IMG/VR virus record: IMGVR_UViG_3300029319_000070
Location: 1-35,105 of that record
Origin: a virus
Length of the DNA: 35,105 nucleotides
Direction: 5' to 3' (one strand)
In this document: positions 8,295 through 33,491 of the stretch, piece after piece
Numbering within the stretch: position 1 is the stretch's first letter
Layout: each line of letters begins with the position of its first letter
The notes under the pieces: generated by a model
Databases searched by the model: none
Told to the model about the DNA's origin: nothing
The model's input: the letters and a program-made list of their open reading frames with translations, nothing else
Program-made: the position numbers and the translations under genes

Positions 8295-8358
8295 TGGTGG
8301 TATAATTAAAAAGTTTTCTGATATAGCAAAACCTCAAAAATTTAAAGGGATATTTTAA
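8119..8358 (+). CDS. Small conserved phage protein of the [13 protein letters not shown] type
   Basis: The chosen start is ATG 8119, preceded by a purine-rich AAGAGG site; a TTG eighteen bases upstream is in frame but less likely. The 79-residue product begins [19 protein letters not shown] and continues through [16 protein letters not shown] recognise this as a short motif widespread in marine phages and other large viruses. Its function is not known to me. The C-terminus adds [11 protein letters not shown] and ends in KFKGIF, another version of the Gly-Gly plus F-K-G tag seen upstream. About 176 bases are shared with the gene starting at 7962 in a different frame. Its stop overlaps the next start (TAATG). 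Confidence 0.85.
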
Positions 8359-8840
8359 TGGACCCAGCAACCATAGGTGTAGCAATTACGGCAGCCAATA
8401 CAGCGTTCAACGCAATAAAGCGTGGATTTCAGGCAGGTCGTGAAATTGAATCTATGGGAAAAGATTTAGGACGCTGGATGTCAGCGTTAAGTGATATTGA
8501 TAATGCAGAAAAATCTGCAAAAAATGCTTCACCACTTAGAAAATTATTTAAAGGTAATGAAATAGAAGCAAGTGCAATAGAGGCTTTTACAGCCAAAAAG
8601 AAACTTGAAGCCCAGCGTCAAGAGTTAAAGACCTTCATAAATTTTCACTATGGACCTAAATCTTGGAATGAGATTTTGGAAATGGAAGCTAATATTAGGC
8701 TTCAAAGAAAAAAAGAAATATATGACAGACAACAATTTGTAAGAAAAATATGGGAATACATAGGATACTTTGTATTATTTTGCACAGTAATTGGTTTCTT
8801 GTTTTTTCTTGCTTGGGTTTACAAAGAGAGTAGGAGATGA
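8358..8840 (+). CDS. Protein with single C-terminal membrane anchor
   Basis: This 160-residue protein has a soluble, helix-rich body with many Ala, Lys and Glu residues. A strongly hydrophobic segment at about residues 131-155 (IGYFVLFCTVIGFLFFLAW) is followed by a short charged tail, KESRR. There is no N-terminal signal, so a tail-anchored topology with the body in the cytoplasm is likely. It lies next to two other membrane proteins (8837 and 9646), so a role in lysis timing or membrane interaction is plausible but unproven. The start overlaps the preceding stop, and the end overlaps the next start (ATGA). Confidence 0.85.
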   Translation: MDPATIGVAITAANTAFNAIKRGFQAGREIESMGKDLGRWMSALSDIDNAEKSAKNASPLRKLFKGNEIEASAIEAFTAKKKLEAQRQELKTFINFHYGPKSWNEILEMEANIRLQRKKEIYDRQQFVRKIWEYIGYFVLFCTVIGFLFFLAWVYKESRR

Positions 8841-9157
8841 CACAGAAAAAACTACAAAAAGATTCTATCCTTAATCAATACGATCTCGATGGTGACAACA
8901 CAATCACAGACGAAGAGCTTCAAAGAGCAAAAGAAATAAAGGAGACAGAAACAAAATTACGAAAAAATCTTGCTCAATTAAGAATGGCAAGATACACACT
9001 TATAGGAATGGGAGTATTCACACTTGCAATGTTTATAGTACCAATAGAACGAGTAGAAGCTTTAGCAGATATAAGTAATTTGTTTTACATTTCAGGAGCA
9101 GGTATTGTTGGTACATATATGGGTACATCAGCATACATGGCAAAGAATGGTAAATAA
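8837..9157 (+). CDS. Membrane protein with an EF-hand calcium-binding loop
   Basis: This 106-residue protein contains a complete 12-position EF-hand loop at residues 16-27 (DLDGDNTITDEE): acidic residues at positions 1, 3, 5 and 12, Gly at 4 is replaced in register by the usual flexible residues, and Ile at 8. The loop is flanked by helical sequence. Two hydrophobic segments follow, about residues 52-70 (YTLIGMGVFTLAMFIVPI) and 80-101 (ISNLFYISGAGIVGTYMG). The arrangement of a soluble Ca2+-binding head on two membrane helices resembles a small holin-like protein. EF-hands occur in some marine phage proteins, but a role here is inference. It overlaps the upstream gene by four bases. Confidence 0.88.
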   Translation: MTQKKLQKDSILNQYDLDGDNTITDEELQRAKEIKETETKLRKNLAQLRMARYTLIGMGVFTLAMFIVPIERVEALADISNLFYISGAGIVGTYMGTSAYMAKNGK

Positions 9158-9645: not shown

Positions 9646-10023
9646 ATGTTACAAGCACTTATAGGTCCTGTCACAGGACTTTTAGATAAATTTATTCCAG
9701 ACGCAGACAAAAAAGCAGATCTCGCTCATAAGATAGCTACCATGTCTGAAAGACACGCACAGGAATTAGCACTTGCTCAAATAGAAGTTCTGAAAGAAGA
9801 TGCTAAAGGCAACTGGTTTCAAAGCTCGTGGAGACCCCTTATTGGCTGGATTTCAGGTCTATCTCTTGGAATAAATTACATGGTAGCACCAATTTGTGCA
9901 GGTTTTGGTATCACAATTCCACAAGCAGATATGTCTGTTATGATGCCCTTGATGTTTGGTATGCTAGGAATTGGTGGAATGAGATCTTTTGATAAGCTTA
10001 AAAAAACAGATACAAAAAAATGA
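9646..10023 (+). CDS. Holin of the 3TM (GTA/phage) type
   Basis: Holins permeabilise the inner membrane so that lysozyme can reach the cell wall. This 125-residue protein has an amphipathic helical N-terminus (residues 1-55), then the family-typical segment WFQSSWRPLIGWISG at 57-71 entering a first membrane span (about 63-87) and a second near 96-112. The pattern matches the holin family I know as GTA_holin_3TM (Pfam PF11351, from memory). A strong ribosome site, AGGAGG at 9635-9640, fixes the start. Unusually, the lysozyme gene lies more than 23 kb downstream rather than beside it. Confidence 0.85.
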   Translation: MLQALIGPVTGLLDKFIPDADKKADLAHKIATMSERHAQELALAQIEVLKEDAKGNWFQSSWRPLIGWISGLSLGINYMVAPICAGFGITIPQADMSVMMPLMFGMLGIGGMRSFDKLKKTDTKK

Positions 10024-10176: not shown

Positions 10177-10368
10177 ATGGATGGAGTTAAACTAGCAGAG
10201 CATTTGTATAAGAACATACGTCAAAGAAAAGAACAATTAAGTGAGTCTTTGGCTGATGGAGCGATAGGATCTATGGAAGACTATCGAGCAATAACAGGTG
10301 AAATACGAGGTCTAACCTGGATTGAAGAAGAACTAAGAACCTCGATGAAAGGTATAGAAGATGACTAA
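10177..10368 (+). CDS. Small helical phage protein
   Basis: The start is taken at ATG 10177, one base after the upstream stop; an upstream in-frame ATG at 10144 would overlap the neighbouring gene by 32 bases. The 63-residue product (KLAEHLYKNIRQRKEQL ... GSMEDYRAITGEIRGLTWIEEEL) is predicted to be two long helices. It is similar in pattern to a small conserved protein often found near holin or head genes of phages. Its function is unknown. It overlaps the co-chaperonin gene by eight bases. Confidence 0.78.
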   Translation: MDGVKLAEHLYKNIRQRKEQLSESLADGAIGSMEDYRAITGEIRGLTWIEEELRTSMKGIEDD

Positions 10369-10843
10369 AAAGTTGTATGTGCCAAATCGGATATTGGCAC
10401 AAAAAGCTAAAGCAGTTAATCCGACCCCAAAAGCTATATCAAAAGCTTTTGATAACAAAGAAGAAGCCAATGAAAATTCTAAAGATCCATCAAAGTTAGA
10501 TGTGTCTGTATTAGAAAGATTACCTCAACCAACAGGATATAGAATACTTGTTATTCCATACTATTTGTCTGAAAAAACAAAAGGAGGAATAATTATTCCT
10601 GATGCAACTAGAGATCGTGAGTCTTTTGCAACAGTCGTAGCTTACGTTGTTAAACTAGGTCCTGATGCCTATCAAGATTCTGATAAATTCCCAAATGGAG
10701 CATACTGTTCTGAGAAGAATTGGGTGCTTATGGGCAGATATGCTGGAAATAGGTTTAAAGTGGATGGTCTTGAGCTAAGAATTATAAATGACGATAATAT
10801 TATAGCAACAATACTTGACCCAGCAGATATTTCATATGTATAG
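10361..10843 (+). CDS. GroES-like co-chaperonin with N-terminal extension
   Basis: Residues 53-160 align in pattern with the 10-kDa co-chaperonin fold: PTGYRILVIPYYLSEKTKGGIIIP at 57-80 corresponds to the start of GroES with its mobile loop and the GGI contact that docks on GroEL. The segments VAYVVKLGPDAY, WVLMGRYAGNRFKV and IINDDNIIATILDPADI follow the remaining strands. An additional 50-residue Lys/Asn-rich N-terminus has no GroES counterpart. Phage co-chaperonins such as T4 gp31 redirect host GroEL to fold the capsid protein, and this gene lies immediately before scaffold and capsid genes. No GroEL is present, so the host chamber must be used. Confidence 0.88.
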   Translation: MTKKLYVPNRILAQKAKAVNPTPKAISKAFDNKEEANENSKDPSKLDVSVLERLPQPTGYRILVIPYYLSEKTKGGIIIPDATRDRESFATVVAYVVKLGPDAYQDSDKFPNGAYCSEKNWVLMGRYAGNRFKVDGLELRIINDDNIIATILDPADISYV

Positions 10844-22014: not shown

Positions 22015-22320
22015 ATGCAGTTAAAGGTTGAGGAAAATTGCCCTCTCAATAATTTTGAAAAATGCAAACAATTTAAATGTGCATGGTTTGTTCAAATGAA
22101 AGGTACAAATCCAAATGATGGCAAAGAAATAGATGAATTTGCTTGTGCTGTTGCATGGTTGCCAGTTTTATTGGTGGAAAATGCAATGCAATCAAGACAA
22201 GCAGGAGCAGCGATAGAATCATTTAGAAACGAGATGGTAAAAGCCAATGAATCCAATCAAAATCTTTTACAACTATCTAAAATTATAGAATTAAAAAATG
22301 GTAAAAGGTTATCACAATGA
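22015..22320 (+). CDS. Four-Cys conserved phage protein (CPLNNFEKCKQFKCAW type)
   Basis: This 101-residue protein has Cys9, Cys17, Cys22 and Cys44 in ENCPLNNFEKCKQFKCAWF and EFACAVAWLP, a spacing that could hold zinc or an iron-sulphur cluster. The second half, LLVENAMQSRQAGAAIESFRNEMVKANE, is a long helix. I recognise the family from marine phages at the same location, after the tail fibre, but not a function. It overlaps the following oxygenase gene by four bases. Confidence 0.82.
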   Translation: MQLKVEENCPLNNFEKCKQFKCAWFVQMKGTNPNDGKEIDEFACAVAWLPVLLVENAMQSRQAGAAIESFRNEMVKANESNQNLLQLSKIIELKNGKRLSQ

Positions 22321-22913
22321 ATGATATGACGAAGGTTAAAAATCTTACATTTATAAGTTCTTACGAAAAGTTAGCATCAGATGATTATTGTGATAGAATG
22401 ATTGAAAGATTTGAATATTTAGCAGGGAATAGTTCGTTAATGCAAACTAGTGGGTATTTAGGTACAGAACAATATGGAGCACAAAAAAGAAGAGATCTGT
22501 CCATATTTTTTCATGAAAAACATAATGAATCATTAGAATTAGCACAAGAAACCAATGCGATCTTAGATGAGGGTCTAAAATTATATGTAGAGGAATACCC
22601 TTCATTAAAAGTTTGTCATAATTTTTATAGTTTACACGTTAAAGTACAAAAGACTCCACCTAAAGGTGGGTTTCATACTTGGCATTGTGAAAAAGGAGGC
22701 GATTATAATTCAAGAACTTTAACTTGGACAATATATTTAAATGACATACCAGAAGGTGAAGGCGAAACAGAATTTTTAGAATACGGCATTAAAGTACAAC
22801 CCAAAAAAGGAATGGTTTGTTTTTTTCCAGCAGATTGGACTCATACACATAGAGGTAACGCTGTTTATACACATGATAAATATATTGCAACTGGTTGGTA
22901 TAACATTGCTTGA
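22317..22913 (+). CDS. Fe(II)/2-oxoglutarate-dependent oxygenase 1
   Basis: Members of this superfamily use Fe(II), O2 and 2-oxoglutarate to hydroxylate proteins, nucleic acids or small molecules. This 198-residue protein has a GGFHTWHCEKGG segment with a His-x-Glu metal pair (His123, Glu125), then TLTWTIYLNDIPEGEGETEFL. The second site, FFPADWTHTHRGNAV, carries the distal His (176 or 178), and KYIATGWY likely holds the 2-oxoglutarate-binding side. The HxE variant in place of HxD is seen here and is tolerated in some members. The substrate is unknown. The start is in an ATGA overlap with the four-Cys protein. Confidence 0.83.
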   Translation: MNDMTKVKNLTFISSYEKLASDDYCDRMIERFEYLAGNSSLMQTSGYLGTEQYGAQKRRDLSIFFHEKHNESLELAQETNAILDEGLKLYVEEYPSLKVCHNFYSLHVKVQKTPPKGGFHTWHCEKGGDYNSRTLTWTIYLNDIPEGEGETEFLEYGIKVQPKKGMVCFFPADWTHTHRGNAVYTHDKYIATGWYNIA

Positions 22914-22923
22914 AGAGAAAAAA

Positions 22924-23409
22924 ATGGCAAAAATTGTTGATAAATTTTTAGAGGAACAACATTTTAATGATTTAAAAAATCTTGTAACAGGTATTTCTTT
23001 CCCTTGGTTTTTTATTAATAATTTAAATGATGAGGGAAACGAAGATAAAGATTTTTATTTTTATATGTCTCATTTGTTATATGATAACAATCAGCCTACA
23101 AGCAATTATTTTGACGCATTTGTTCCGTTGTTATCAACTATAGGTTATAAGGCATTAATAAGGGTCAAGGCTAATCTTTACCCTAGAACTAAAACATTAA
23201 GACATAATGGTATGCACGTTGATACAGACTATGATCACAAAGGATTTTTGTTTTATTTTAATACTTGTGATAGTAAAACAATTTTAAAGGATATGGAAGT
23301 TGATTGTGTGGCTAATAGAGGAGTATATTTTAACCCTTCTATACTACACTCAAGTTCTTCTTGCACAAATGTTCAAGCTAGATTTAGTTTAAACGTAAAC
23401 TATTTTTAA
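22924..23409 (+). CDS. Fe(II)/2-oxoglutarate-dependent oxygenase 2
   Basis: The start is taken at ATG 22924, after an AAGAG-type ribosome site; a frame extension to 22873 would run inside the preceding gene. The 161-residue product has MHVDTDYD with His98-x-Asp100, a distal His142 in PSILHSSSSC, and Arg153 in ARFSLNVNYF. This is the complete His-x-Asp...His metal triad plus the Arg that holds 2-oxoglutarate. The pattern IRVKANLYPRTKTLRHNGMHVD is typical of phage-encoded members. It does not resemble the first oxygenase in detail, so this is not a simple recent duplication. Substrate unknown. Confidence 0.84.
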   Translation: MAKIVDKFLEEQHFNDLKNLVTGISFPWFFINNLNDEGNEDKDFYFYMSHLLYDNNQPTSNYFDAFVPLLSTIGYKALIRVKANLYPRTKTLRHNGMHVDTDYDHKGFLFYFNTCDSKTILKDMEVDCVANRGVYFNPSILHSSSSCTNVQARFSLNVNYF

Positions 23410-32800: not shown

Positions 32801-33048
32801 TTTTAGAAAGCTCTGGTGTAAAAAATCAAATAAGAAATGTAACTCAACAGTTAGGACCAGCTATTAATCAAGCAAGAGCAGGAGTAAATCAAGCAAGGGG
32901 TTTAACTGCATCAGCTCCTAATATAAATCCACCAGCATCAGGAACTCAACTTGCTGGTATAAACATATCTAATCCAGCTAATGCTTTCTCTTTGGGTCTT
33001 AGTCCACAAAACATAGCAATAGCACAAAGAACAAGGGGAACTCCGTGA
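29881..33048 (+). CDS. Very large internal virion (ejection) protein with glycine-zipper membrane segment
   Basis: This 1055-residue protein starts directly after the upstream stop. The first 40 residues (VVLNTPQGKVNITIAGDKPT) form a small beta element found at the start of similar phage proteins. A long Gly/Ala/Ile-rich stretch at about residues 139-188 (VGGVTGAITGQLAIPIP, VGAAIGAGIGAGGG) is a glycine zipper likely to insert in a membrane. The rest is long helices. Size and place, next to lysozyme and behind two other ejection proteins, match podovirus internal core proteins that build the DNA-transit conduit. No lytic transglycosylase motif is recognisable. Confidence 0.75.
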   Translation: MGKVVLNTPQGKVNITIAGDKPTLEESIQINNIIRQSGAGRRVSKQEPNVADKLEQLFDTSTGIRSNALRSALSVAETNEEEDAILRKFDLNDDDFLRDNRGRLALTPTGAAKFGQETDRNILVDEEGFSKYDFSDLAGIVPELVGGVTGAITGQLAIPIPIVGAAIGAGIGAGGGQAVEELGEAVAGVQKQDIKDIAGDVGKEAAIGFFSDLTFGLAAGAFRAVRRGVTPGKDLTATELDTAGLSTSPPIDEAGNVIKPADFARLSADEKIEAVNRVVTKEDGTVVRGGFGVKPTLSAIRAPSLVARIQAIGEKIFKTSDRLKNNNDVIKQVIDAYKEKFGLEGADAVDVGQLLKRGMVDNNEQLIKAEKDAQRQIIEQMKGAVGVFKRAADENGSVDDDLFTIFKSASDEFDTFISGKFRAVDDILRDDAGLGRQGIMFINNFADHLKRIKSDYAPQIAARDPDGKAFQNIIDSFESIGGKLDDGLKKDISFNQLYNLRKTLSDLRMSSNDTVKQELTNVNGTGLLDEVDNMFKQMGDENSQLFRDLSGRLGNIGVSVDKFKRAGETLRGAQAEFFEGKSILEDLYASQAIKNLSRYRTMPGELDKAPMNIDIYRNIIKPNNPQFLKRATDFLREFGGRAGRSGDEVADEFIARAGNQFLEDAIETSGIKNFKNVKDFNGTKFAMAVKGLGTTARELFGDKTNEILKLADEIGGVKISGLQARNVLDQYRDAVGEGGTESINGLLQGMEGLAVTQRILAREQKNRIINKLQDETLDLDPLEAARFLVQKQTKNSEIKPIMNYFARNQDNAAEQKIRAYYINSMIDDFGESVMTDGKSLNAFADRILAAAEDGKLRTIFPGGVGESMEKFGKILKFNARAAEGGDLVAANIAASPFQNLGKLAKFTILGNRMLSQSYYDDIISQYNGITLKQFKRPEERARSLGSIIGKALSQSTGQTIDNAVTEAEDQVDAVLESSGVKNQIRNVTQQLGPAINQARAGVNQARGLTASAPNINPPASGTQLAGINISNPANAFSLGLSPQNIAIAQRTRGTP
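30041..30056. repeat. Palindrome copy 3, TCGAACAATTGTTCGA
   Basis: This is a perfect 16-base palindrome inside the large ejection protein gene, read as Glu-Gln-Leu-Phe-Asp. It shares the 14 bases CGAACAATTGTTCG exactly with the copy after the capsid gene (13754-13767). Confidence 0.7.
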
Positions 33049-33491
33049 ATATAGAACAGTTAAGAGACACTCTTAAAATTGACGAGGGCTGTGTAAATTC
33101 CGTGTATTTAGACCATTTAAATTTGAAGACTGTAGGAATTGGACATTTGCTGACAGAGTGGGATGAAGAGTATGATAAACCAGTTGGTACCCCAGTATCA
33201 GAAGAACGTGTCAATGAATTGTTTGATAAAGATGTTCAAGTGACAATAGAAGAGTGCGAACAATTATTCGGTAACTTTAATGATCTGCCAGAAGAAGTGC
33301 AGCAGATTTTAGCCAATATGATGTTTAACCTGGGCAGACCAAGATTGTCCAAATTCAGAAAGCTTTGCAAAGCTGTGGCTGAAAAAAATTGGCAAGAATG
33401 TGCAACTCAGATGTACGATTCGAAATGGAGAATGCAAGTCCCTAAACGAGCAGAGAGATTAATAGAAAGAATGAAAGCTGTAGCTACTTAA
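33045..33491 (+). CDS. T4-type lysozyme (endolysin, GH24)
   Basis: The enzyme cleaves the peptidoglycan glycan chain at the end of infection. The start is GTG 33045, overlapping the upstream TGA. The first 35 residues include TLKIDEGCVNSVYLD and TVGIGHLL. The catalytic set is Glu14, Asp23 and Thr29, with the same spacing (9 and 6) as Glu11, Asp20 and Thr26 of T4 lysozyme. The helical C-terminal lobe includes LANMMFNLGRPRLSKF and WRMQVPKRAERL, also typical. There is no signal peptide, so it needs a holin such as the protein at 9646. It could instead be a virion-associated lysozyme given its neighbours. Confidence 0.93.
   Translation: MNIEQLRDTLKIDEGCVNSVYLDHLNLKTVGIGHLLTEWDEEYDKPVGTPVSEERVNELFDKDVQVTIEECEQLFGNFNDLPEEVQQILANMMFNLGRPRLSKFRKLCKAVAEKNWQECATQMYDSKWRMQVPKRAERLIERMKAVAT

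Follow-up and report, generated by a model that had tools for sequence, protein, structure and literature searches.

An EF-hand loop fused to a two-helix membrane hairpin, encoded beside lysis genes in two of three phage subfamilies

Background

How phages time lysis is an old question, and no ligand is known to take part in the timing of the established holins. Class II holins, such as the lambdoid S21 protein, are small two-helix hairpins, oriented N-in/C-in and encoded by a gene of the lysis cassette. The protein analyzed here (EF protein) is predicted to be of the same make, and homologues devoid of the EF-hand occupy the holin position before Rz/Rz1. EF protein is however longer, carries an EF-hand, and has no recognized sequence relation to any named holin family, the likeness being one of architecture and gene place at most. 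RcGTA-type holins (PF11351, GTA_holin_3TM) are encoded by a neighbouring gene of the same module, often in translational overlap, but form a three-TM family without EF-hand, of which EF protein is not a member. PHROG 27150, of unknown function, which includes a phiM12 gene product, belongs to the same family as EF protein (EF-hand plus hairpin, E 5e-10); the phiM12 member differs in having a longer N-terminus and a location in the tail cluster.

Calcium is the switch of the endolysin LysGH15, the CHAP domain of which contains an 'EF-hand-like' 12-residue Ca2+ loop (PMC4022735). LysGH15 and EF protein, for which a role in lysis is proposed, would both be phage lysis proteins with a 12-residue Ca2+ loop. 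LysGH15 is in contrast a soluble enzyme, its CHAP loop is short of one flanking helix, and it is neither a membrane protein nor homologous to EF protein. In the literature, consulted mainly as titles and abstracts, no description came up at this level of a membrane protein for phage lysis that bears an EF-hand, and no paper pairing an EF-hand with a pelagiphage was found in it; matches to EF-hand plus holin are endolysin, genome, and review papers, judging by titles and abstracts.

The data reported below suggest that EF protein is probably an inner-membrane protein of the lysis module, made up by a holin-like two-TM hairpin (N-in, C-in) and a cytoplasmic EF-hand, the exit helix of which runs into TM1. 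This degree of confidence applies to the whole reading, lysis hairpin plus EF-hand; whether calcium would promote or delay lysis is close to an even bet.

The EF gene and its surroundings

The stretch of DNA analyzed (35,105 nucleotides; the window) comes from a virus record of 52,675 bases with genes for a large terminase, a SU10-type portal, a major capsid protein, other virion proteins, and an endolysin of the phage-lysozyme type. Features of interest are listed in Table 1. The start of the EF gene sits within the stop of the gene encoding the one-span protein P160, four nucleotides being shared, and the ORF for the 94-aa basic protein begins one base past the EF gene end. This ORF and the one for a 65-aa protein separate the EF gene from the 3TM holin gene. 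The neighbours reported in a preliminary description of this DNA, a one-span protein and a 3TM holin, the latter here assigned to PF11351, are both in place. Elsewhere in the window, a GroES-like co-chaperonin gene (10361-10843; phrog_3188, E 5e-12) lies beside capsid assembly genes, and two adjacent genes of the structural region (22317-23409) have matches to 2OG-Fe(II) oxygenase and to a PHROG annotated as 'DNA endonuclease V'.

Table 1. Position of the EF gene, its domains, and lysis-related or neighbouring genes in the window
Feature	Position	Strand	Remarks
One-span membrane protein P160, 160 aa, PHROG 32327-like	8358..8840	+	Often the upstream partner
EF-hand two-TM hairpin protein (EF protein), PHROG 27150-related	8837..9157	+	ATG start, 106 aa
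12-residue EF-hand loop D16-E27, DLDGDNTITDEE	8882..8917	+	Residues 16-27
TM1, about residues 53-70	8993..9046	+	Prolongs the EF exit helix in the model
TM2, about residues 80-101	9074..9139	+	GIVxxYMG motif conserved; no variation at G96 among 57 aligned sequences
Small basic protein, 94 aa	9158..9442	+	Mobile neighbour, position differs among relatives
65-aa protein, hydrophobic N-terminus and Cys residues	9439..9636	+	Common in the same cassette
3TM holin, PF11351 GTA_holin_3TM, phrog_3427	9646..10023	+	E 7.8e-16
Phage-lysozyme-type endolysin of the window phage	33045..33491	+	Homologue adjoins the EF gene or P160 in some relatives

EF protein contains a single EF-hand loop, running from D16 to E27 and N-terminal to the two membrane helices. 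All the oxygen-ligand positions 1, 3, 5, and 12 are filled (D16, D18, D20, E27), and the loop fits the PROSITE EF-hand pattern. DLDGDNTITDEE is the sole match to this pattern in the 64 plus-strand ORFs of the window (11,990 aa), and zero matches were found in the minus-strand ORFs; shuffling EF protein yields 0.00035 matches per protein. As a single sequence, the protein scores just under the gathering cut-off of Pfam EF-hand_5 (23.0 vs. 25.9 bits, E 5e-5), and when a profile is built from 57 relatives, its positions 7-44 match calmodulin chains at 1e-9. The canonical EF-hand loop of the preliminary description is confirmed. A match to XopAW (E 0.009, 15.9 bits vs. a cut-off of 120) spans the EF-loop region only, and was discarded.

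Conservation of the loop

Relatives were monitored by using as queries the C-terminal halves of three subfamily members (window-type, CRP-1-type, and T4-like-type), in order to keep the loop itself out of the search. In IMG/VR, about 460 or more matching stretches were detected with each of the three queries; the best 80 matches per query, hence the nearer relatives of each, were analyzed. The T4-like and CRP-type sets come from the C-terminal-half query only, and the window-type set also includes contigs found with the full-length query. Among these best 80 matches per query, the ligand positions 1, 3, 5, and 12 are kept in all the 184 full-length distinct relatives, and the motif D-x-[DN]-x-[DN]-...-E in 67/68 T4-like-type, 51/53 CRP-1-type, and 66/67 window-type distinct sequences, the four sequences without the motif being truncated at contig ends. 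Loop positions 2, 7, and 10 drift among relatives. The alignment of 57 sequences shows no variation at D16, E27, Q47, V91, and G96; when 15 highly diverged members are compared, D16 and E27 are among the most conserved columns, and positions 2, 7, and 10 are widely variable. Codons at loop positions 1 and 12 vary synonymously only (GAT/GAC 120/37 and GAA/GAG 119/38, respectively, as counted by a loop pattern which shifts about 12 CRP-type loops out of register by two residues). To judge from this sequence variation, the EF-hand loop is under purifying selection. Loss of the acidic ligands in homologues, looked for because it would speak against the preliminary description, is an exception, the ligands being kept in nearly every homologue.

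Family members identified by tblastn include the roseophages CRP-1, -9, -207, -345, and -810, the Limnohabitans phage DC31, the Sinorhizobium phages phiM12, phiM7, phiM19, and phiN3, the Methylophilales phage Melnitz, the Pelagibacter phage HTVC008M, and the Stenotrophomonas phage DLP_6; relatives reside in Pelagibacter, roseobacter, and OM43 phages. None was found in the plasmids searched. The loop is missing in DLP_6, the sole loss among the members individually inspected. Shorter homologous hairpins devoid of the EF-hand are encoded by two freshwater phages, MW202520 (70 aa) and the Limnohabitans phage DC33, the gene being unannotated in both; when a profile is made from C-terminal halves of EF family members, the MW202520 hairpin matches it at 7e-8 (for a search space of 100,000).

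Calcium levels in the cytoplasm are sub-micromolar; those outside exceed them by orders of magnitude in sea water, and still by a clear margin in fresh and soil water. The preliminary description had appealed to the calcium richness of sea water, and this part of the argument is weakened, as the relatives in the freshwater phage DC31 and in Sinorhizobium phiM12 keep the same loop. The persistence of the loop in phages of freshwater and soil bacteria, as in marine ones, would also be in line with a structural EF-hand, always filled by Mg2+ or Ca2+, which caps a helix or pairs the subunits of a lysis hairpin, calcium being no signal. Position 8, through which loops pair up in known EF-hands, is occupied by I or V in 57/57 aligned sequences, as expected of a paired loop, and makes pairing between subunits plausible. 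Position 12 is however an invariant Glu, which in EF-hands favours Ca2+ over Mg2+, and EF-less homologous hairpins are found beside lysis genes, hence the hairpin does not need the EF-hand. On balance a purely structural loop is unlikely. Calcium binding by a single EF-hand without a partner is usually weak, pairing being required; this counts against the lysis hairpin with a calcium-responsive loop favoured here.

Hairpin and topology

In the AlphaFold2 model a short entering helix (residues 11-15) and the loop are followed by a long helix (25-65), in which the F-helix continues into TM1; TM2 is inside the helix 70-104. The mean pLDDT is 78, the EF part being less certain (block means 61-65) than the hairpin (83-91). 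Both sequence and model agree with the earlier proposal that the EF-hand is joined to two membrane helices. The C-tail is basic and the inter-helix loop slightly acidic (mean net charge +2.2 and -0.5, respectively), which favours a predicted N-in/C-in topology of the two TM helices, with the EF-hand in the cytoplasm. As the EF exit helix is also TM1, the hairpin could be directly affected when calcium binds. No fold search yielded a significant match (calmodulin the best in PDB, E 3.7; best viral match, E 7.3), a result expected for a query consisting of one EF-hand plus a hairpin. A superinfection-exclusion or defence effector was considered and rejected, only weak matches to SLATT 2TM profiles (E 0.002 and 0.011, one member) and no defence context being seen.

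Association with lysis genes

A holin-like or endolysin gene is found within 1.6 kb of the EF gene in 81 of the 84 window-type loci (best-matching contigs), the 'holin-like' classes holB and holC being assigned from size and hydrophobicity; in the remaining three loci the contig ends soon past the EF gene. Restricting the analysis to Pfam-backed classes (PF11351, phage lysozyme, M15) the figure is 71/84. All of the 80 CRP-1-type loci (best 80 matches) feature a M15 peptidase or a u-spanin gene within 1.5 kb. Loci inside a group are related, and these counts are not independent. Gene orders in window-type loci include P160-EF-3TM holin, P160-EF-lysozyme-3TM holin, lysozyme-P160-EF, EF-holB-M15, and others, and linkage to lysis genes does not therefore reflect one inherited order. 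The EF gene, a PF11351 3TM holin gene, and a GH108 endolysin gene are consecutive in CRP-810, as are P160, EF, Rz-like spanin, and M15 endolysin genes in DC31; in one locus (L039) lysozyme, P160, and EF genes are found at an operon end. In CRP-1 the EF gene overlaps the start of a M15-type endolysin gene, followed by that of a lipobox/TM u-spanin. When most of the small CRP-1 proteins were scanned for hydropathy, no two-helix hairpin besides EF protein and the u-spanin was seen in the lysis region, and no 3TM holin was noticed among the proteins scanned.

In MW202520 and DC33 the gene of the EF-less hairpin immediately precedes Rz, in which a frame for the Rz1 lipoprotein is embedded; this is the classical place of holins. 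The endolysin gene comes next in DC33, and one small ORF later in MW202520. DC33 (L348, PQ492659) is filed under Inoviridae, though it is 39 kb long and carries this hairpin/Rz/Rz1/endolysin cassette, in which the embedded Rz1 is unannotated; the taxonomic assignment looks wrong. CRP-207 gp73 (L087:2387-2968) is annotated as 'putative lysozyme', and its translation consists of a N-terminal TM and a long coiled coil; it looks more like an inner-membrane spanin, and the lysozyme annotation wrong.

In many relatives the 3TM holin gene is directly 3' of the EF gene, with an overlap of 1-4 nt. This frequent junction would fit an antiholin, or sensor for lysis inhibition, in which calcium that enters upon superinfection or damage to the envelope would occupy the loop and postpone lysis by restraining the adjacent 3TM holin; a folded, acidic domain preceding TM1 in the cytoplasm could hold back the hairpin. 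Yet some loci feature EF, P160, and endolysin genes and no recognized 3TM holin nearby, and we regard a role as antiholin as quite unlikely. The presence of a 3TM holin in many phages counts, on the other hand, against the lysis-hairpin reading too. At several loci (L072, L056, L060, L063, L071) the 3TM holin gene after or near the EF gene is replaced by that of a 125-130 aa 'MIQFLTPLANLATSF...' protein (phrog_2524, function unknown), possibly an unnamed holin family.

In CRP-1, DC31, and many IMG/VR contigs a P160 homologue is encoded next to the EF gene or close by; in CRP-9 the two are distant. P160, which has one span and a charged region in the cytoplasm, also occurs without the EF gene, and in the cobavirus CRP-4 is found beside spanin-like genes. 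P160 is an unrecognized lysis-module family.

Proposed mechanism

The EF-hand loop is conserved, is fused to the hairpin, and is linked to lysis genes in two of the three subfamilies; gating of lysis by calcium through EF protein is a plausible proposal. The interpretation given in the preliminary description is partly supported: the loop, its fusion to the hairpin, and the lysis module are borne out, calcium gating of lysis and sensing of a membrane breach being proposals. In the low-calcium cytoplasm the loop would be empty, or loaded with magnesium. When the membrane starts leaking, outside calcium would enter and fill the loop, and the filled loop would change the angle or the pairing of the EF/F-helix in neighbouring subunits. 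Hairpins would then assemble, or free a partner holin, leading to abrupt lysis. EF protein may act as co-holin or timing partner in phages which also encode a 3TM holin, and would be one of two holin candidates in those relying on endolysin, P160, and EF protein only. Filling of the loop by the first leak, by which a slow leak could turn into a sudden opening, is the most likely single mechanism; a structural loop constantly filled by metal, or a brake instead of a trigger, fits the same data. The more specific proposal, a ligand-gated holin-like hairpin exploiting the calcium step between cytoplasm and outside as a positive feedback for abrupt lysis, in a large and mostly marine group of phages, is possible but doubtful.

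No Pfam, PHROG, or NCBIfam holin family matches EF protein above cut-off; this counts against the lysis-hairpin reading, and is the reason why the family is not filed as holin, its function being predicted only. If the calcium-gating proposal is true, a calcium loop on a holin-like hairpin would provide lysis with a ligand input, and calcium may have a part in setting the time at which infected cells burst. EF-bearing and EF-less hairpins offer a natural comparison.

T4-like relatives

The lysis setting suggested for the gene in the preliminary description holds for window-type and CRP-type relatives, but not for T4-like ones, in which the gene resides in a tail-hub cluster. In HTVC008M, Melnitz, phiM12/phiN3, and DLP_6 the EF-family gene is located between gp51 and the tape measure gene (gp26-gp51-X-tape measure), and in HTVC008M the annotated lysozyme gene is far away. 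This placement counts against the lysis-hairpin reading. Along with the occurrence of gp26 upstream of the EF-family gene in many environmental contigs, it would suit a tail or virion assembly factor, for instance an aid to the assembly of hub or tape measure that is anchored in the membrane. No family gene was however found between gp51 and the tape measure gene in S-SM1, pf16, and Mendera, an indication that the gene is optional, and not a core tail part. T4 gene 28 has the same position, but its product by inspection features neither a TM hairpin nor an EF-hand; as some T4-like phages moreover lack the gene, homology to gp28 was rejected. Since window-type and CRP-type relatives keep the gene beside lysis genes, a function in tail assembly is very unlikely. 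For the lysis hairpin favoured here, the T4-like placement may reflect late expression from a permissive site, the sole explanation we can offer. A 131-aa protein encoded after gp51 in S-SKS1 looks unrelated to the EF family. Genes for curli secretion (CsgG) and adenylate/guanylate cyclase are found near the tape measure and EF genes in Melnitz and HTVC008M (L083, L350).
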